Virus record (IMG/VR): IMGVR_UViG_3300032046_000149
Coordinates: 1-29,901 of that record
Direction: 5' to 3' (one strand)
From: a virus
Length of the DNA: 29,901 bases
The first letter of the stretch is position 1. The number at the start of each line of letters is the position of its first letter. Made by a program: the position numbers and the translations under genes. This document shows positions 168 through 6,279 of the stretch, piece by piece. Under the pieces are notes generated by a model. It was not told the DNA's origin and did no database searches. It saw nothing but the letters and a program-made list of their open reading frames with translations.

Positions 168-299
168 ATGCAAGACCTTTGGGAGCGAAGACAGATTATT
201 AACAAACCCCCGTTAAAACTTATGGCTTCGGCTGTAAGTTTTTTTATGCTCCCAAAGGCAACGGGGGTTTTAAATTTAATGGAGGGCTACAATGCCTAA
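168..299 (+). CDS. Short frame (43 aa) overlapping a structured RNA
   Basis: This frame starts at an ATG 6 bases after a strong AAGGAG (156-161) and ends 8 bases into the next gene (TAA at 297-299). It would encode MQDLWERRQIINKPPL..., without recognisable similarity. Almost all of it is covered by the pseudoknot described at 176-270, so the base sequence is probably constrained by RNA folding rather than by the protein. It could be a leader peptide whose translation opens or closes the RNA structure upstream of the repeat-protein gene. An alternative is that it is not translated at all. Confidence 0.3.
   Translation: MQDLWERRQIINKPPLKLMASAVSFFMLPKATGVLNLMEGYNA
176..270 (+). ncRNA. Pseudoknotted RNA element with a UUCG hairpin
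   Basis: Three perfect or wobble-only helices can be read directly. Helix S1 pairs CCTTTGGGAGC (176-186) with GCTCCCAAAGG (248-258), 11 bp. Helix S2 pairs AAACCCCCGTT (204-214) with AACGGGGGTTT (260-270), 11 bp. A 12-bp hairpin (215-226 with 231-242, two G-U pairs) is capped by the stable C(UUCG)G tetraloop and continues S2 without a gap on the 5' strand. The order S1, S2, hairpin, S1', S2' makes S1 and S2 cross, so this is a pseudoknot. S1' and S2' are one base apart. It ends 10 bases before the GGAGGG of the 292 gene, so control of that gene is a reasonable inference. I could not match it to a known riboswitch or ribozyme. Confidence 0.7.
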
Positions 300-1326
300 A
301 ACAATTAAAGGATTTAAAGCTTTTAAAAAAGGTTTAATTTGTAAAGATATTAAATTTGAAGAAGGCAAGACTTACGAAACCGATAAAGCCAAAATATGCC
401 AAAGTGGTTTTCATCTTTGTAGAAATCCTCTTGATGTCCTGGATTATTATGATTTATGCGAAAGTGAATTTGCCGAGGCAGAAGCATTAGGAAAGATTGA
501 TACCCATAAAGAAGATAGTAAAATTGCAACTACTAAAATTAAAATCGGAATGAAACTGTCTTTAAAAGCATTTATTGAAGCCTCTGTAAACTTTTTATTA
601 ACCACTTGTAAAAGTAAAAAGACAGCGGCCAGCGAACACTCCAGCAAATTAGCAGCCAGCGGATACTCCAGCCAATTAGCAGCCAGCGGATACTCCAGCA
701 AATTAGCAGCCAGCGGATACTCCAGCCAATTAGCAGCCAGTGGAGACTCCAGCAAATTAGCAGCCAGTGGAGACTCCAGCCAATTAGCAGCCAGTGGAGA
801 CTTCAGCAAATTAGCAGCCAGCGGATACTCCAGCCAATTAGCAGCCAGTGGAGACTCCAGCCAATTAGCAGCCAGTGGAGACTCCAGCCAATTAGCAGCC
901 AGCGGATACTCCAGCCAATTAGCAGCCAGTGGAGACTTCAGCAAATTAGCAGCCAGCGGATACTCCAGCAAATTAGCAGCCAGCGGATACTCCAGCCAAT
1001 TAGCAGCCAGCGGATACTCCAGCAAATTAGCAGCCAGCGGATACTCCAGCCAATTAGCAGCCAGTGGAGACTCCAGCCAATTAGCAGCCAGTGGAGACTC
1101 CAGCCAATTAGAATTAAGTGGAGAAAATTGTGTGGGGGCAGGAATTGGTATAAATAATAAAATCAAAGGCAAAAAAGGGAATTGGATTACCCTTGCCGAA
1201 TGGATTTATGATGATAATAAAAAGAGATATATTCCTATTTGTGTAAAGTCGGCGCAAATTGATAACATTTCAGTATTTGAGGATAAATGGTATCAATTAA
1301 AAAATGGAGAATTCATAGAAGTATGA
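292..1326 (+). CDS. DUF7666-like protein with 18 nonapeptide repeats
   Basis: The gene starts at an ATG 5 bases after GGAGGG (281-286). The N-terminal ~90 residues (KGFKAFKKGLICKD, then GKTYETDKAKICQSGFHLC and NPLDVLDYY) match my memory of the DUF7666 family common in phages; its function is unknown. Residues 112-273 are 18 tandem copies of a 9-residue unit, consensus AASG[Y/D]SS[Q/K]L. The C-terminal ~70 residues (GKKGNWITLAEW, then WYQLKNGEFIEV) are the usual C-terminal part of such proteins, so the array is inserted between two conserved ends. The regular small and polar residues suggest a beta-solenoid, possibly 18 residues (two units) per turn; this is inference. No signal peptide is seen. 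The stop overlaps the next ATG (ATGA), implying translational coupling. Confidence 0.85.
   Translation: MPKTIKGFKAFKKGLICKDIKFEEGKTYETDKAKICQSGFHLCRNPLDVLDYYDLCESEFAEAEALGKIDTHKEDSKIATTKIKIGMKLSLKAFIEASVNFLLTTCKSKKTAASEHSSKLAASGYSSQLAASGYSSKLAASGYSSQLAASGDSSKLAASGDSSQLAASGDFSKLAASGYSSQLAASGDSSQLAASGDSSQLAASGYSSQLAASGDFSKLAASGYSSKLAASGYSSQLAASGYSSKLAASGYSSQLAASGDSSQLAASGDSSQLELSGENCVGAGIGINNKIKGKKGNWITLAEWIYDDNKKRYIPICVKSAQIDNISVFEDKWYQLKNGEFIEV
625..1110 (+). repeat. In-frame tandem array, 18 x 27 bp
   Basis: Eighteen 27-bp units without any length variation encode AASxxSSxL. The first unit (AASEHSSKL) is divergent; the others fall into two linked haplotypes, AGC GGA TAC and AGT GGA GAC. The synonymous Ser codon always travels with the Tyr or Asp codon. 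TTC replaces TCC only in the Asp type (twice), and the Gln/Lys codon toggles CAA/AAA. Linkage of a silent site to a coding site shows that whole units have been duplicated or converted. Confidence 0.97.
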
Positions 1327-1733
1327 AAATCTATATTGACTTCATCCAACCGAAACCTAAACTCCCCCCCGCTAAATATTTTCTCCCTGCCGTGATTATT
1401 TTATTACTAATAATAATGTGGTTTTCTTGGGCGAGGGCAGACATCGCTTGGGATAGTTTTACTAATGAGCAGATTACAGAAGCAATAGGCAAGGCAGAAA
1501 ACAGCGTCAAGTATCCTTACGGCATAAAGTCTATTGATACGAAAGGTGATGTAGAATATGCCCGTCAAATATGCCTTAATTCTGTCCGCAATGGCAGGGC
1601 AAGGTGGATAAAGGCAGGCAAACTTTATGACTTGATAATTTATATCGGATTAAGATTTTGCCCTCCAAATGCTCATCTACTAAATTCAAACTGGGTCAGG
1701 AATGTTAAAGCAATATTAGAAAGAAATAAGTGA
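1323..1733 (+). CDS. Membrane-anchored muramidase-like protein, lysis candidate
   Basis: The product is 136 aa, starting at the ATG that overlaps the upstream stop (ATGA). Residues 1-18 are polar with several prolines and lysines, residues 19-37 are a strongly hydrophobic segment, and WARA at 36-39 resembles a signal-peptidase site. The exported part contains TEAIGKAENS...YPYGIKS (about 53-70), then a Cys-containing helix and a conserved-looking RFCPPNAH...NSNWVRNV end. The AEN/S-x-YPYGI block resembles phage proteins with a lysozyme or lytic transglycosylase-like arrangement, with E59 as candidate catalytic acid. I infer a signal-anchored or secreted peptidoglycan-degrading enzyme. A non-enzymatic envelope protein is the main alternative. 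Confidence 0.5.
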   Translation: MKIYIDFIQPKPKLPPAKYFLPAVIILLLIIMWFSWARADIAWDSFTNEQITEAIGKAENSVKYPYGIKSIDTKGDVEYARQICLNSVRNGRARWIKAGKLYDLIIYIGLRFCPPNAHLLNSNWVRNVKAILERNK

Positions 1734-2020
1734 AATGCCATTGTATTAACTGCTGGAATTTTAAGACTAAAGTTATCACCAAGCCATCCCGTTGGTTCAA
1801 CGGGACATTAATTGATAAGAACCTTAAAAAAGCCCGAGAGTTACCCGTTCTCCTTGCGAATATCTGCACTTTCTGCGATATACCCACTTTGTCAGTGCCA
1901 AAGGGAATAAGGGTATTTTGGTGTGAGCAACAGCAACTTACCAAGATGTTTTATGTTAATAATAAAGCCCTTTATAAGATTAAGAAATCAAAGTGCAAAT
2001 TTGCTGATTATGGAAACTAA
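1730..2020 (+). CDS. Cysteine-rich putative metal-binding protein (96 aa)
   Basis: The start is a GTG overlapping the previous stop (GTGA). The N-terminus has C3, C5 and C8 (KCHCINC), followed by C46-x2-C49 and C65, a spacing that could bind zinc. The middle holds a basic stretch and the C-terminus is lysine-rich, as in small nucleic-acid-binding phage proteins. No family is recognised. A 6-bp hairpin, CCCGTT-GGTTC-AACGGG at about 1788-1804, lies inside the gene. There is no strong ribosome binding site, so translation probably depends on coupling to the upstream gene. Confidence 0.65.
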   Translation: MKCHCINCWNFKTKVITKPSRWFNGTLIDKNLKKARELPVLLANICTFCDIPTLSVPKGIRVFWCEQQQLTKMFYVNNKALYKIKKSKCKFADYGN

Positions 2021-2126
2021 AGACGAAAAACTTTTAAGGGAAGATAGAGAGTGGCAGGAAAATTCCTACCGCTACGCACACGAGCATTTTAAAGAGATGG
2101 TTAGCAGAGAAAACGAGGGGAGGTAG
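2010..2126 (+). CDS. Small charged hypothetical protein (38 aa)
   Basis: The chosen ATG at 2010 gives METKDEKLLREDREW..., 38 aa rich in Glu, Arg and Lys and probably a single amphipathic helix. It overlaps the end of the upstream gene by 11 bases. An upstream in-frame start would add a stretch that only mirrors the other gene's sequence in a shifted frame, so the short form is preferred. The function is unknown. The GGGGAGG of the next gene lies in its last codons. Confidence 0.5.
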   Translation: METKDEKLLREDREWQENSYRYAHEHFKEMVSRENEGR

Positions 2127-2132
2127 ATTGAG

Positions 2133-2354
2133 ATGATTAGTTACGAACAGAAATTAGCGATTGAAAGATTTGCGGATGCCTTACGCAAGAAACTGGCCAT
2201 TCCGAAAGACACCGACAATTTTGTGGACAGGATAAAAAAGATAATCTTTGAATATGTCTGGGACATTCTTGTGCTTACACAACAGGAATTTGATTTAGAG
2301 TTCGACGAATGGAGTATGCAGTTAGAGGAAGCATATCGCAATGGCAAAAAATAA
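2133..2354 (+). CDS. Hypothetical protein (73 aa), probably helical
   Basis: The gene starts with ATG ATT AGT after a strong GGGGAGG at 2115-2121. The product (MISYEQKLAIERFADALRKK...) looks all-helical, with an acidic C-terminal half (EFDLEFDEWSMQLEE). No family is recognised. Its 3' end overlaps the start of the nuclease gene by 14 bases, so it is in the same transcript and probably co-translated. Many phages carry small proteins of this kind directly before the exonuclease. Confidence 0.65.
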   Translation: MISYEQKLAIERFADALRKKLAIPKDTDNFVDRIKKIIFEYVWDILVLTQQEFDLEFDEWSMQLEEAYRNGKK

Positions 2355-2994
2355 CCAACGAAATAAGTATAAGGATGCCACTGGGACCATCCTCCCGGGA
2401 GTAACTACCATAACTGGACAAGAGTTGGGTTGGAATAAGCAGGTGCTTATCTCTTGGGCTAACAAACTTGGTCTTAAGGGCATCGAGGCAGCCAAGTATG
2501 TGGATGATAAGGCAGACATCGGCACACTTGCCCATCAACTAATTCTTGACCACTTCCGAGGTTTAAAAACCGATACTTCCGACTACTCCAAGAATCAGAT
2601 AGACCAAGCCGAGAACTGCCTGTTAAGTTTCTACGAATGGGGCAAGGGCAAGGTCGTCAAACCCATTCTCTTGGAGCAACCGTTAATAAGTGAAGTCTTC
2701 AAATTCGGCGGGACACCCGATTGCTATGCCGAGATTGACGGCAAATTGACCCTGTTGGATTTTAAGACTGGCAAGGGGATTTACGACGAATATGCGATTC
2801 AGGTGGCTGGAGGTTATCTTCTGCTTTTGGAGGAGGCAAAGCATATAGTCGAGGAGATAGTGATTCTAAACATCCCCCGCGCCGAGGATGAGGCATTCTC
2901 GGTAAAACCGATAAAAGAGTGGGATGTTTGCAAAAAGATATTCTTGAATTGCCTGAATACCTACCAACTCAAGAAAAAACTAAAGGAGGAGTGA
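2341..2994 (+). CDS. PD-(D/E)XK (RecB/Cas4-like) exonuclease
   Basis: The 217-aa product has the signature of phage RecB/Cas4-like nucleases. GTLAHQLI carries the conserved His (H65). GGTPD (123-127) supplies the first metal-binding Asp, LLDFKTGK (138-145) is the D-x-K motif (D140, K142), and QVAGGY (154-159) is the Q-x3-Y motif. All key residues are present. Such enzymes resect DNA ends during phage recombination or replication, or degrade host DNA. The four-cysteine cluster of Cas4 is absent, which argues against a Cas4 adaptation enzyme. The gene is followed 2 bases later by a zinc-ribbon protein, a frequent pairing in phage recombination cassettes. Confidence 0.9.
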   Translation: MAKNNQRNKYKDATGTILPGVTTITGQELGWNKQVLISWANKLGLKGIEAAKYVDDKADIGTLAHQLILDHFRGLKTDTSDYSKNQIDQAENCLLSFYEWGKGKVVKPILLEQPLISEVFKFGGTPDCYAEIDGKLTLLDFKTGKGIYDEYAIQVAGGYLLLLEEAKHIVEEIVILNIPRAEDEAFSVKPIKEWDVCKKIFLNCLNTYQLKKKLKEE

Positions 2995-2995
2995 G

Positions 2996-3343
2996 ATGCA
3001 ATGTCCTATTTGTGCAGGACCGATGTGGGACAACACGGTGGATAAGAAGAATCCCAAGGGACCAGATTACAAATGCAAGAATAAGGAGTGCGGTCACGCG
3101 GTCTGGCTGGATAATAAGAAACCAACAATATTCAAACCTCCAAAACCCGAACCGATCGCAAGCAATAATAGCCAACCAGTCGGTTCAAGGGCGATGGTAA
3201 TGGCTTATGCTAAGGATTTAATTGTGGCACAGATAACGGCAGGAACAGGACCACAACAACCTTTAAAGTCAATAATTTTTACTTTCAGGTCTTTGTGGCA
3301 GGAAGTAGAAAGACCAGGAAGCGTAGTTTTTAAGGAAGAGTAA
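2996..3343 (+). CDS. Zinc-ribbon protein next to the nuclease
   Basis: The ATG at 2996 follows AAGGAGG (2984-2990). The 115-aa product opens with a zinc ribbon: CPIC at residues 3-6 and C27-x4-C32, with intervening text (MWDNTVDKKNPKGPDYKC) like the short ribbons of phage DNA-binding proteins. A proline-rich linker (PPKPEP) leads to a helical C-terminal domain (AMVMAYAKDLIVAQI..., ending FRSLWQEVERPGSVVF). I recall this ribbon-plus-helical layout in phage proteins beside RecB-like nucleases or annealing proteins, but cannot assign a biochemical role. The last three bases overlap the structured RNA at 3341-3436. Confidence 0.75.
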   Translation: MQCPICAGPMWDNTVDKKNPKGPDYKCKNKECGHAVWLDNKKPTIFKPPKPEPIASNNSQPVGSRAMVMAYAKDLIVAQITAGTGPQQPLKSIIFTFRSLWQEVERPGSVVFKEE

Positions 3344-3436
3344 TTTATGGGGAGGCGTATCCGTCCAGCATAAATTAACCCTTTGGGCGAAAGGGCGTTG
3401 ATACTGCCTCCCCTAAAATCCCCGCCAGTCACGGAT
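3341..3436 (+). promoter_or_regulatory. Structured RNA leader with alternative helices
   Basis: The 98-base gap before the next gene is filled by complementary segments. The main stem pairs GGGGAGGCGTATC (3349-3361) with GATACtGCCTCCCC (3400-3413), 13 bp with one bulged T. It encloses a 6-bp hairpin, CCCTTT-gggcg-AAAGGG. Two further perfect matches would compete with or cross the main stem: TAATTTATG (3341-3349) with CATAAATTA (3369-3377), 9 bp, and ATCCGT (3359-3364) with ACGGAT (3431-3436), 6 bp. The last strand lies just before the ATG at 3442, which lacks a good ribosome binding site. Mutually exclusive folds near a weak start suggest a translational switch; this is inference. Confidence 0.55.
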
Positions 3437-3441
3437 TAGAT

Positions 3442-3627
3442 ATGCAATTTGATACCGAAAAAATAACCGATGAGCGCATTCCCTACTTGGGAATAGTTTC
3501 TAATGACGGCGTTGTAGTTTCTTGCGTCCGGATAAAGGAGTGCGTGCCGAGTTGTATAAGGTGGAAGAAGTGTAGTGTAAAGGAGGTAAAAAATGACATT
3601 CCTAATCTACCTGATTTTAGTTTATAG
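3442..3627 (+). CDS. Cysteine-containing hypothetical protein (61 aa)
   Basis: This frame begins at the ATG of GATATGCAATTT and ends at 3627. The product has four cysteines in the centre (SCVRIKECVPSC...KKC), which could form a small metal site or disulphides. No family is recognised. The start has no clear Shine-Dalgarno sequence and is preceded by ACGGAT, one strand of the structured leader. The gene's 3' part contains the strong AAGGAGG of the next small gene, which overlaps it by 35 bases. Confidence 0.5.
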   Translation: MQFDTEKITDERIPYLGIVSNDGVVVSCVRIKECVPSCIRWKKCSVKEVKNDIPNLPDFSL

Positions 3628-3670
3628 TTTGTTGATATGGCTGGAGCGGAGGGCGGTAAATGATGAGTGA
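3593..3670 (+). CDS. Tiny single-helix membrane protein (25 aa)
   Basis: A strong AAGGAGG (3580-3586) precedes this ATG by 6 bases, better than the signal of the overlapping 3442 gene. The product is one hydrophobic helix, MTFLIYLILVYSLLIWLERR, with a charged C-terminal end. It overlaps the next gene's start by 11 bases. The role is unknown; it could anchor or modulate a membrane process. Ribosome binding site quality is the main support. Confidence 0.55.
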   Translation: MTFLIYLILVYSLLIWLERRAVNDE

Positions 3671-3905
3671 TTTATTTCAAAATAAGTCCCAGCAGTTATT
3701 GACTTGGTGCCGTCAGAGGCGGGTTTTTAGCAAGGCCGATTTAATGCGTTACGGATTGGACAATTGGTATCTAAGGTGCGATAGGACGGTTAGGTCTTGG
3801 GTGCAGGCGGGCTTGGTGAGGCGGCTGAATGATTGGGAGAGGAAGCAGGGAGGATTACGAGGCAGAATGGCATATTATTGTTATATAGAAAAAAGGGATG
3901 CATAA
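3660..3905 (+). CDS. Winged-helix DNA-binding protein (81 aa)
   Basis: ATGATG at 3660 follows GGAGGG (3648-3653), and either ATG could serve. The sequence QQLLTWCRQRRVFSKADLMR, then DRTVRSWVQAGLVRRLND, and finally GLRGRMAYYCY reads as helix-turn-helix plus a beta wing: strand-helix-helix, a recognition-like helix rich in Arg, then a two-strand hairpin. Small winged-helix proteins of this kind occur in phage early regions as repressors, activators or replication accessory proteins. It lies directly before the noncoding structured region and the replication initiator, so regulation of either is plausible but not shown. Confidence 0.65.
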   Translation: MMSDLFQNKSQQLLTWCRQRRVFSKADLMRYGLDNWYLRCDRTVRSWVQAGLVRRLNDWERKQGGLRGRMAYYCYIEKRDA

Positions 3906-3910
3906 TTGCA

Positions 3911-4023
3911 TAACTGGAAACCGACAAGGTTACTATTCCTTGACTTCCTCCCACCACTCCACAAGGAGTTACGGAAGGAAATTAGAACAGTTGCGGTTAG
4001 GCTTATTCGGTTTTGCGAACCGC
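3911..4023 (+). other. Predicted multi-hairpin RNA or structured DNA
   Basis: This stretch has no gene but contains compatible perfect 5-6 bp helices. AACTG (3912-3916) with CAGTT (3988-3992) could close a multiloop holding CAAGG/CCTTG (3925-3929/3938-3942) and CTTCC/GGAAG (3944-3948/3973-3977), the latter enclosing ACTCC-acaa-GGAGT (3956-3969). It is followed by GCGGTT/AACCGC (3993-3998/4018-4023). AACCG (3919-3923) can alternatively pair with CGGTT (3994-3998), crossing the closing stem. Each helix is short, so chance pairing is possible. The text CCCCTAAAAT after the last stem also follows the main stem at 3413. Confidence 0.35.
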
Positions 4024-4036
4024 CCCTAAAATTATC

Positions 4037-4065
4037 TTGACAAATGAAGAATAGTGATTTAATAT
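4037..4065 (+). promoter_or_regulatory. Strong sigma70-type promoter
   Basis: The -35 box TTGACA (4037-4042) is a perfect consensus. It is separated by 17 bases from TAATAT (4060-4065), which matches TATAAT at 4 of 6 positions including the key first, second and last bases. Transcription would start near 4072, six bases before the first helix strand of the RNA below. It is the best promoter I see in the window and lies in a gene-free gap. Confidence 0.7.
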
Positions 4066-4071
4066 GGGATG

Positions 4072-4201
4072 AAGAAAGGAAGCCCAAATGCAACAGAGTT
4101 TTTTATCAACCCCAAAAGAAAATAAGGTGATAGAGAAAAGGAGTTTCCTACCGACTCTGTTGGCAGGGCTTCCGACTCCCGAGTATCTATCGCCTTTTTT
4201 T
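4072..4201 (+). ncRNA. Candidate phage small RNA with pseudoknot and terminator
   Basis: From the inferred start at about 4072 the RNA would be ~130 nt, ending in seven U residues (4195-4201). Helix S1 pairs GGAAGCCC (4078-4085) with GGGCTTCC (4166-4173) and continues as CAACAGAGT (4091-4099) with ACTCTGTTG (4154-4162). Helix S2 pairs AAGGTGATAGA (4124-4134) with TCTATCGCCTT (4186-4196), 11 bp with one G-U, extended inward by GGAGT/ACTCC (4140-4144/4175-4179). S1 and S2 cross, so the fold is a pseudoknot. S1' and S2' are separated by one base (G4174). S2' plus the U-run acts as the terminator. The role is unknown; no known family is recognised. Confidence 0.65.
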
Positions 4202-4228
4202 GTAAGGTTTTTATTTATGAATTCCTGA
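4088..4228 (+). CDS. Short frame (46 aa) inside the small RNA
   Basis: ATG CAA CAG... follows AAAGGA at a workable spacing and stays open for 46 codons, past the U-run to a TGA at 4226-4228. It would encode MQQSFLSTPKENK..., ending in a hydrophobic FFVRFLFMNS. The overlap with long complementary strands and a terminator makes coding doubtful. It may be a chance frame, or the locus may be a leader-peptide or dual-function RNA. Confidence 0.2.
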   Translation: MQQSFLSTPKENKVIEKRSFLPTLLAGLPTPEYLSPFFVRFLFMNS

Positions 4229-4240
4229 AATGAGATAAAA

Positions 4241-4879
4241 ATGGACTATATCAGTATAAAAAACCTTGATAAGTTTCAACCACATTATAAAGATGGCAGA
4301 GTAATTCTTTGGATACGTTGGGATATAGAAGCAATAGGGGACTATAAGATTGCCAAACTTACCTCGAGCCAAAGATGGTTGTTTATAGGGCTTATTTGCT
4401 TGGCCTGTAAGCACCTTAACCAGATTCCAATGGATGAACAGTGGATAAGTGAGGAGATTAGATACCCCCAAAAATCTATCCTTAATGATTTAAAGAAGTT
4501 ACAGGAATTAGAATTGATAGTAACAAATTGCACCAAATTGGTGCAAAAAGACACTACGATACATACGATACATACGATACAAACAGACAATACATATATC
4601 GTGGAGTTCTTTAATTATTTCCTCTTAAAAACCAAAAAAGTCTTTAAACTCACCCTTACCAACCGCAATTTAATCCGCCAACGCCTTAATGATGGCTTTA
4701 CTATTGAGCAGATGGAACAGGCAGTAGATAACTTTATGCAGGATGATTGGCCAGACCGGCAGAAACATCTTGATCTTATCTATTGCATCGGTATCCGGAA
4801 CAAGATAGATAATCTTGAGAAATGGCTTAATTATAAACCTAAAGATAAAACCACCCTTATTTTTAAGAAGGAGGTTTAA
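4241..4879 (+). CDS. DnaD-like phage replication initiator
   Basis: The product is 212 aa. The N-terminal half (about 20-95) reads as a winged helix typical of phage replisome organisers: an SSQRWLFIGLICLACKH helix, then EEIRYPQKSILNDLKKLQELELI. The C-terminal part (LTLTNRNLIRQRLNDGFT, then DLIYCIGIRNKIDNLEKWLNY) matches the conserved C-terminal domain of DnaD-like and phage replication proteins. Such proteins bind the origin and help load the host helicase. A weak TGAGAT lies before the ATG. The middle, between the domains, contains an inverted repeat and three 9-bp iterons encoding a TIHTIHTIQ linker. This fits initiators that carry their origin inside their own gene. Confidence 0.8.
   Translation: MDYISIKNLDKFQPHYKDGRVILWIRWDIEAIGDYKIAKLTSSQRWLFIGLICLACKHLNQIPMDEQWISEEIRYPQKSILNDLKKLQELELIVTNCTKLVQKDTTIHTIHTIQTDNTYIVEFFNYFLLKTKKVFKLTLTNRNLIRQRLNDGFTIEQMEQAVDNFMQDDWPDRQKHLDLIYCIGIRNKIDNLEKWLNYKPKDKTTLIFKKEV
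4528..4582 (+). other. Candidate replication origin: inverted repeat plus iterons
   Basis: A perfect inverted repeat TTGCACCAA-a-TTGGTGCAA occupies 4528-4546. Ten bases later come three head-to-tail 9-bp repeats: ACGATACAT (4556-4564), ACGATACAT (4565-4573) and ACGATACAA (4574-4582), followed by AT-rich sequence. Iterons in the interdomain part of an initiator gene are the arrangement of lambda O and many Gram-positive phage origins. The origin function here is inferred from position and repeats. Confidence 0.6.
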
Positions 4880-5519: not shown

Positions 5520-6200
5520 ATGAAAAAAATCACTCAAGAGGAATTTAATGCTTTTGAACGAGATGAAAATGGTATTTTATATCTTCCTTCAGCCGATTAT
5601 TCTTTAATAAAAAAATTCAATGAGCAGTGCTCTTTCGGTAAGCAGTGCTCTTTCGGTGAGCAGTGCTCTTTCGGTGAGCAGTGCTCTTTCGGTGAGCGGT
5701 GCTCTTTCGGTGAGTGGTGCTCTTTCGGTGAGCAGTGCTCTTTCGGTGAGCAGTGCTCTTTCGGTGAGTGGTGCTCTTTCGGTAAGCAGTGCTTTTTCGG
5801 TAAGCAGTGCTCTTTCGGTGAGCGGTGCTCTTTCGGTGAGTGGTGCTCTTTCGGTGAGCAGTGCTCTTTCGGTGAGTGGTGCTCTTTCGGTAAGTGGTGC
5901 TCTTTCGGTGAGCGGTGCTCTTTCGGTGAGCGGTGCTCTTTCGGTGAGCGGTGCTCTTTCGGTGGGGGGTGTAAAGCAATTTGTCCTTCTTGGTCTTTTG
6001 TATATGAGCCACCCCTTGAAACAATGGGAAAAATTTATCCCCCTCTCGCAACTCGTTCTTATTGGGAGGAACGGTTAAATATTAAACTTGCCCCCTGTTA
6101 TGACGAGATAGCCCAGCAGATTAAACCCTTGTTGCCTGAAATATTAAAACGCAAGGATTTGACAAAATGTGAACGCAGGATATTGGAGAGTTGGTTATGA
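5520..6200 (+). CDS. Cys-hexapeptide repeat protein (226 aa)
   Basis: The start is an ATG after AAAGGAGAG. Residues 1-36 form a conserved-looking head (KKITQEEFNAFERDENGILY). Residues 37-150 are 19 perfect-length hexapeptides of consensus CSFGE[Q/R/W]. The tail (residues 151-226) includes WSFVYEPPL, YWEERLNIKL and ILESWL. In the register F-G-E-x-C-S the repeat approximates the hexapeptide rule ([LIV]-[GAED]-x-x-[STAV]-x) of left-handed beta-helices; 19 units would give about six turns. That would place Phe inside and align Cys residues in a ladder. This structure is inferred. No signal peptide is present, so the cysteines would be cytoplasmic and probably reduced or metal-bound. Confidence 0.75.
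   Translation: MKKITQEEFNAFERDENGILYLPSADYSLIKKFNEQCSFGKQCSFGEQCSFGEQCSFGERCSFGEWCSFGEQCSFGEQCSFGEWCSFGKQCFFGKQCSFGERCSFGEWCSFGEQCSFGEWCSFGKWCSFGERCSFGERCSFGERCSFGGGCKAICPSWSFVYEPPLETMGKIYPPLATRSYWEERLNIKLAPCYDEIAQQIKPLLPEILKRKDLTKCERRILESWL
5628..5969 (+). repeat. In-frame tandem array, 19 x 18 bp
   Basis: Nineteen units of TGC TCT TTC GGT GAG NNN run without indels. The last codon is only CAG, CGG or TGG (GGG in the final unit), and the fifth codon is GAG or AAG (GGG in the final unit). One unit has TTT in place of TCT. The codon thus toggles C/T and A/G at two positions. The fourth combination, TAG, would be a stop and is absent. Confidence 0.97.
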
Positions 6201-6219
6201 GGGATTGCTGGAGGTGTTT

Positions 6220-6279
6220 ATGGGAATGAAAAAAGACTTAAAAAATACAATAATAGACCAAGCCCTAAGCAATAAATAA
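6220..6279 (+). CDS. Possible 19-aa peptide
   Basis: ATG follows GGAGG (6210-6214) at good spacing and encodes MGMKKDLKNTIIDQALSNK. This is the only supported frame in the 118-base gap between the repeat gene and the 6319 gene. Evidence is limited to the ribosome binding site; no similarity is recognised. Confidence 0.25.
   Translation: MGMKKDLKNTIIDQALSNK

Follow-up and report, generated by a model that had tools for sequence, protein, structure and literature searches.

The window, that is, the whole 29,901-base virus record analysed here, carries podovirus-like head-tail genes (phrog_332, phrog_376) and, on its plus strand, two long-stemmed pseudoknots, element 1 (176–270) and element 2 (4078–4196), each crossed by a short reading frame and followed by a gene start. 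In element 1, S1 pairs 176–187 with 247–258 (12 bp with one G-U, or 11 bp minus the terminal G-U) and S2 pairs 204–214 with 260–270 (11 bp, no G-U); a single nucleotide, C259, separates S1′ from S2′, and TAAATTT comes after S2′. A further hairpin that the preliminary description had missed, S3 (215–226 with 231–242, 12 bp), abuts S2 and, with a T run at 239–245, makes up a terminator-like hairpin (215–245) inside the element. The sequence AAGGAG at 156–161 resembles a ribosome-binding site and precedes the ATG (168–170) of a 43-codon leader frame (168–299) that runs through the whole pseudoknot and whose end overlaps the start, at 292, of the next gene. That gene (292–1326), 21 nt past S2′, encodes a DUF7666 domain and repeats; the repeats form a long run of near-identical short units, and positions 3180–3430 of locus L033 encode another low-complexity repeat gene. 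No convincing promoter was seen for element 1 (best score 8.5).

Element 2 has the same strand order. Its S1 consists of an outer helix of 8 bp (4078–4085 with 4166–4173) and, across a small internal loop, an extension of 10 bp (4091–4100 with 4153–4162, one G-U), while S2 pairs 4124–4134 with 4186–4196 (11 bp, one G-U) and runs directly into a tract of seven Ts (4195–4201). The gap between S1′ and S2′ (4173 to 4186) is 12 nt. A promoter-like TTGACA-17-TAATAT lies at 4037–4065, its −10 hexamer ending 12 nt before S1; a 46-codon leader frame (4088–4228) passes through the pseudoknot; and the gene behind it (4241–4879) is replication-initiation-like, with weak PHROG matches to phrog_428 and phrog_16167. 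The helix coordinates thus agree with the preliminary description as to the order S1-S2-S1′-S2′, the 11-bp S2 and the T-rich tract behind both elements, but the one-nucleotide gap that it ascribed to both belongs to element 1 only. Both leader frames do begin with ATGCAA behind a plausible ribosome-binding site, as it had pointed out, but this start is not specific, the frames at 2996 and 3442 beginning likewise. A third crossing pair lies between genes at 3341–3413 (3341–3349 with 3369–3377 and 3349–3356 with 3406–3413, one base being common to both); it also has an inner hairpin, and no T tract stands behind it.

The two elements differ in how far they exceed chance. Among helices spanning up to 140 nt, none in the 29.9 kb window is stronger than S1 and S2 of element 1, whose nested energies are −17.7 kcal/mol for S1 and −28.4 kcal/mol for S2 plus S3, and no comparable crossing pair (both helices of at least 11 bp, gap up to 2) arose in 60 dinucleotide shuffles of the window's plus strand. 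For element 2 the nested energies are −26.8 (S1) and −12.4 kcal/mol (S2), and the strength of its core helices was reached by 6 pairs in 60 window shuffles, a plus-strand count in which the 10-bp extension of S1 plays no part. No homologue of either element was found among the relatives scanned. Among close portal-protein relatives (84 loci, 827 kb) the structural descriptor recognised no counterpart of element 1 or 2, giving only the L017 copy described below and matches inside genes or repeats. BLAST against named phages, with the window's first 8 kb or the L017 element as query, returned nothing, and for the window's initiator-like protein no relative could be confirmed either in IMG/VR or in sets of 7 and 9 relative records. 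No Rfam family matches any part of the window, and none in Rfam 15 reached its gathering threshold at any element there or in nine member loci; open-access literature searches yielded no paper describing such an RNA, which is not proof of absence from print.

The descriptor search of related phages that had been proposed as a check did find the same layout elsewhere, in some ten further uncultivated phages. A sigma-70-like promoter often stands near S1, and S1-S2-S1′-S2′ leads on to a T tract and then to a gene start. Relatives of an exonuclease gene, L006 and L007, carry crossing helices of 13 bp and 13 bp, separated by 1 nt and followed by CTTTT, L017 holds a further copy of this element, and a wider exonuclease scan added elements in L108, L111 and L115. 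Exonuclease relatives also occur in MAG contigs labelled PVC, Phycisphaerae, Omnitrophota, Ignavibacteriales and Desulfobacterales, which may be phage contigs binned with their hosts. Since the gene behind several elements is a replication initiator, relatives of the initiator were scanned as well, yielding elements in L130, L133, L124/L125, L128 (two) and L131 (two), after which whole contigs were scanned. The working list comprises 15 elements, one of them a weak member (L213, minus strand, 8720–8640), and three contigs, namely the window, G030 and G032, have two each. Stems are of about 7–18 bp with no fixed sequence, and the S1′/S2′ gap, a single nucleotide in element 1, L111, L006/L007 and L131b, measures 2–19 nt in the others. 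The suggestion of a class sharing topology without sequence similarity therefore stands as far as descriptor matches in other phages, in excess of shuffles, are concerned, but not in its exact one-nucleotide gap. The elements represent a recurring and apparently uncatalogued design.

That excess was tallied over all matches, with no hand choice, in loci drawn from relative searches rather than from a random sample of phages. In 686 kb of clade contigs plus the window, 14 matches had E of at least 44 and T of at least 6, against 0, 2, 2, 2 and 1 in five shuffles; with T of at least 7 and a promoter there were 8 against 0, 0, 1, 0 and 1, and in a looser promoter class (E at least 38, T at least 5) 12 against 2, 4, 5, 2 and 2. 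Across 1.38 Mb (111 loci), E of at least 46, T of at least 4 and a promoter score of at least 9 gave 8 matches against 0, 1 and 1 in three shuffles, the 8 including copies of one element and two matches (L095/L097) later dropped; in this set the L028 repeat inflates the counts made without a promoter. Selection of matches under E 45 took the promoter score into account, so the argument from a promoter is in part circular for L133, L131b and the weak minus-strand L213 element.

Many matches were dropped by eye because they lay within genes, were palindromic, belonged to G+C repeats or had no T tract or promoter: L064, L107, the L028 repeats, L119, L082, L046, L059, L111 at 2269, L115 at 8531, L128 at 8663, L135, L138, L140, L241, L243 (11550), L227 (8271), L222 plus-strand, L214 (1678), several in distant loci, and others. 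L010 17–97 fits in position and was rejected as an in-gene match with weak stems. L095/L097 passed the numerical rule (22-bp S1, promoter 11) and were left out for an S2 with no G-C pair; in L097 (3090–3206) and L095 (2350–2466) the 22-bp helix crosses an A/T-only helix behind a promoter-like TTGACA-18-TAAAAT, and this may be another structured RNA. At L107 3390–3540 overlapping ACATTG/CATAGCTATG palindromic repeats cluster where there is no 60-codon frame, possibly an origin or operator. The known DUF3800-V RNA (RF02964) occurs at L007 12557–12656 (+), L017 5538–5637 (−) and G009 6157–6256 (−), about 1 kb or less from the pseudoknot element of the L006/L007/L017 family and, in L007 and L017, outside it.

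Compensatory changes, the other check that had been named, appear in both crossing helices of two homologous pairs, the window's own elements having no homologue in which to look. L130 and L133, whose initiators are 72% identical, keep 7 of 9 S1 pairs unchanged and alter 2 on both sides, and keep 6 of 9 S2 pairs unchanged and alter 3 on both sides, with none broken in either helix; the helix columns were placed by eye, S2 on its 3′ strand. Between L006 and L007, the 13 pairs of S1 show one one-sided change and the 13 pairs of S2 one two-sided and two one-sided changes, again with none broken, so that both pairs together contain six two-sided changes and no loss of pairing.

The start codon follows the end of S2′ by 21 nt in element 1, 44 nt in element 2, and 20, 26, 21, 22, 22, 24, 23, 21, 21, 16, 22, 24 and 25 nt in the rest. 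In our reading, then, a start codon lies 16–26 nt past S2′ in 14 of 15 elements, the start having been picked by eye or without a ribosome-binding site in element 2, L007, L111, L213 minus and L128a; a strict scripted rule places it there in 10 of 15, compared with 3 of 85 ordinary terminators on the same contigs. Compact phage genomes, however, place gene starts close behind any feature, which counts against an argument from placement. The gene behind is initiator-like in five cases (element 2, L111, L115, L130, L133) and otherwise encodes an Erf recombinase (L128b), a methyltransferase (L108), an HNH protein (L131a), a DUF559 protein (L128a) or the DUF7666 protein of element 1, among others. 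Looking from the gene's side, an upstream element (score at least 44.5, within 1.3 kb) is present at 7 of 12 near-clade initiator loci and at none of 51 distant ones, a contrast that is not fully independent, some elements having been discovered in clade loci and two of the 12 (L124 and L125) being near-identical; four of the 51 have weaker matches, up to 41.5. The remaining five near-clade initiators have no detectable element, the initiator occurs in 7 of 384 Omnitrophota genomes with no convincing element nearby, and nine named-phage stretches contained nothing convincing. In L132, inspection by eye of the 260 nt ahead of 6001 shows the initiator preceded by a promoter-like site and a plain hairpin terminator, so that a fold other than a pseudoknot occupies the same place.

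Of 14 elements (L006/L007 being taken once), 12 have an ATG-started frame that spans S1′ and S2′, whereas shuffles give an expectation of 4.8 (P about 6e-5 under that null); frames with any start do so in 13 of 14 against 8.7 expected. Some leader frames begin after S1, and those of element 1, L115 and L131b overlap the following start at their 3′ end. The peptides have no clear common sequence and no recognisable codon bias, and between L130 and L133 the first short frame differs by 2-nt gaps, which does not support a conserved peptide. In L124/L125, L128a (L214), L128b (L215) and L131b (L220) the first loop holds a T run after a stretch with CGACGAGRA, a combination nearly confined to those elements in the contigs searched; it may serve as a second terminator or as a binding site, and its sharing by L124/L125, L128 and L131b hints at common descent.

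Because of this placement and the T tracts we favour action in cis: the elements would be pseudoknotted transcription attenuators of early phage operons, probably opened by translation of the leader, a proposal on which we are almost evenly divided, leaning slightly to doubt. In the mechanism that we infer, for termination and its regulation as well as for the identity of the regulator, a host-type promoter, usually just 5′ of the leader, would produce an RNA that folds as the long-stemmed pseudoknot S1-S2-S1′-S2′, S2 and the T tract forming an intrinsic terminator locked by S1. The gene start behind it, often with a ribosome-binding site, would open a replication or recombination operon. The default would most likely be termination, leaving a stable RNA of about 100–140 nt, and either a ribosome translating the leader or a bound protein would block formation of S1/S2 and let polymerase read through; where, as in several cases, the leader stop codon overlaps the next start, ribosomes could be handed on. 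Terminator tR2 is described as almost completely repressed when it lies just downstream of a gene (PMC4824070), which would fit leader-frame translation as the opener. Against this reading stand the linkers of the L115 element (3 and 3 nt), which seem on inspection too short for full S1 and S2 to form together, together with the weak promoter evidence at element 1, the 44 nt between element 2 and its gene, the leader peptides without clear common sequence, the frames that begin after S1, and the initiators and named phages at which no element was detected.

A free-standing gene for a trans-acting phage sRNA, made of promoter, pseudoknot and terminator and lying before operons by chance, would explain the promoter-like sites near S1, the T tracts at the 3′ end and the two copies on several contigs (window, G030, G032). 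We regard it as unlikely, in that the tight spacing to start codons and the recurrence before initiators point to action in cis, the stem sequence is not conserved, and elements 1 and 2 are no more complementary to other parts of the window than shuffled RNA is. Distinctly improbable, in our view, is a protein operator, in which the initiator or another early protein would bind the pseudoknot and repress its own operon, the T tract being incidental. Five elements do stand directly before initiator-like genes, and there is a precedent in the autogenous repressor gp32 of phage T4, for whose RB69 counterpart a target diverged in sequence and similar in structure is described (PMC535899), but other elements precede Erf recombinase, methyltransferase, HNH and DUF559 genes, and T tracts and promoters recur too regularly for an incidental role. 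Plain, unregulated terminators or insulators between transcription units, with S1 as decoration or chance, are very improbable: S2 and its T tract would suffice alone and the core helices of element 2 are not individually rare, but S1 varies by compensation in L130/L133 and is long in most members, often near a promoter.

Returning to attenuation in cis, it is possible, and here we commit ourselves only tentatively, that the elements form a new class of phage regulatory RNA, a pseudoknot terminator that retains its topology, its T tract and its spacing from the gene while its sequence is free to vary, and which, repeated within a genome, would gate separate replication and recombination operons and be opened by translation through the knot. 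If so, uncultivated phages control replication genes through an RNA defined by topology and missed by sequence-based and nested-structure searches, the family is marked by the knot alone and not by sequence, and leader translation and phage DNA replication are connected by a testable link.

The attenuators of the trp/his type consist of a promoter, a short leader frame, an RNA fold and a T-tract terminator, followed by the operon. Most of the elements display this order as a sequence pattern, element 1 without a clear promoter, but S1 and S2 cross rather than compete: they have no bases in common, and there are no overlapping alternative helices to make two mutually exclusive folds. An intrinsic terminator's G+C-containing stem and T tract can likewise be read from the sequence, S2′ running into the tract in most of the 15, but in place of a short hairpin loop S2 encloses 45 nt in element 1 and 51 nt in element 2, which hold S1′. 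ToxI, as it is described, is also a pseudoknot RNA before a gene, but it consists of repeats and goes with a ribonuclease toxin, whereas each element here is one long pseudoknot, and the genes that follow belong to replication and recombination, encoding initiators, Erf, a methyltransferase, an HNH protein and others. The T4/RB69 gene 32 operator is a short pseudoknot and is not known to carry a T tract. It resembles the elements in serving a phage DNA-replication gene and in keeping structure over sequence, and differs in being a translational operator bound by gp32 (PMC535899). Compared with the SAM-II riboswitch as described, the elements have no conserved ligand core, fixed sequence or Rfam match, but SAM-II too is a pseudoknot in a leader, and one S. 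meliloti SAM-II leader is predicted to terminate transcription, releasing an sRNA (PMC9373788).
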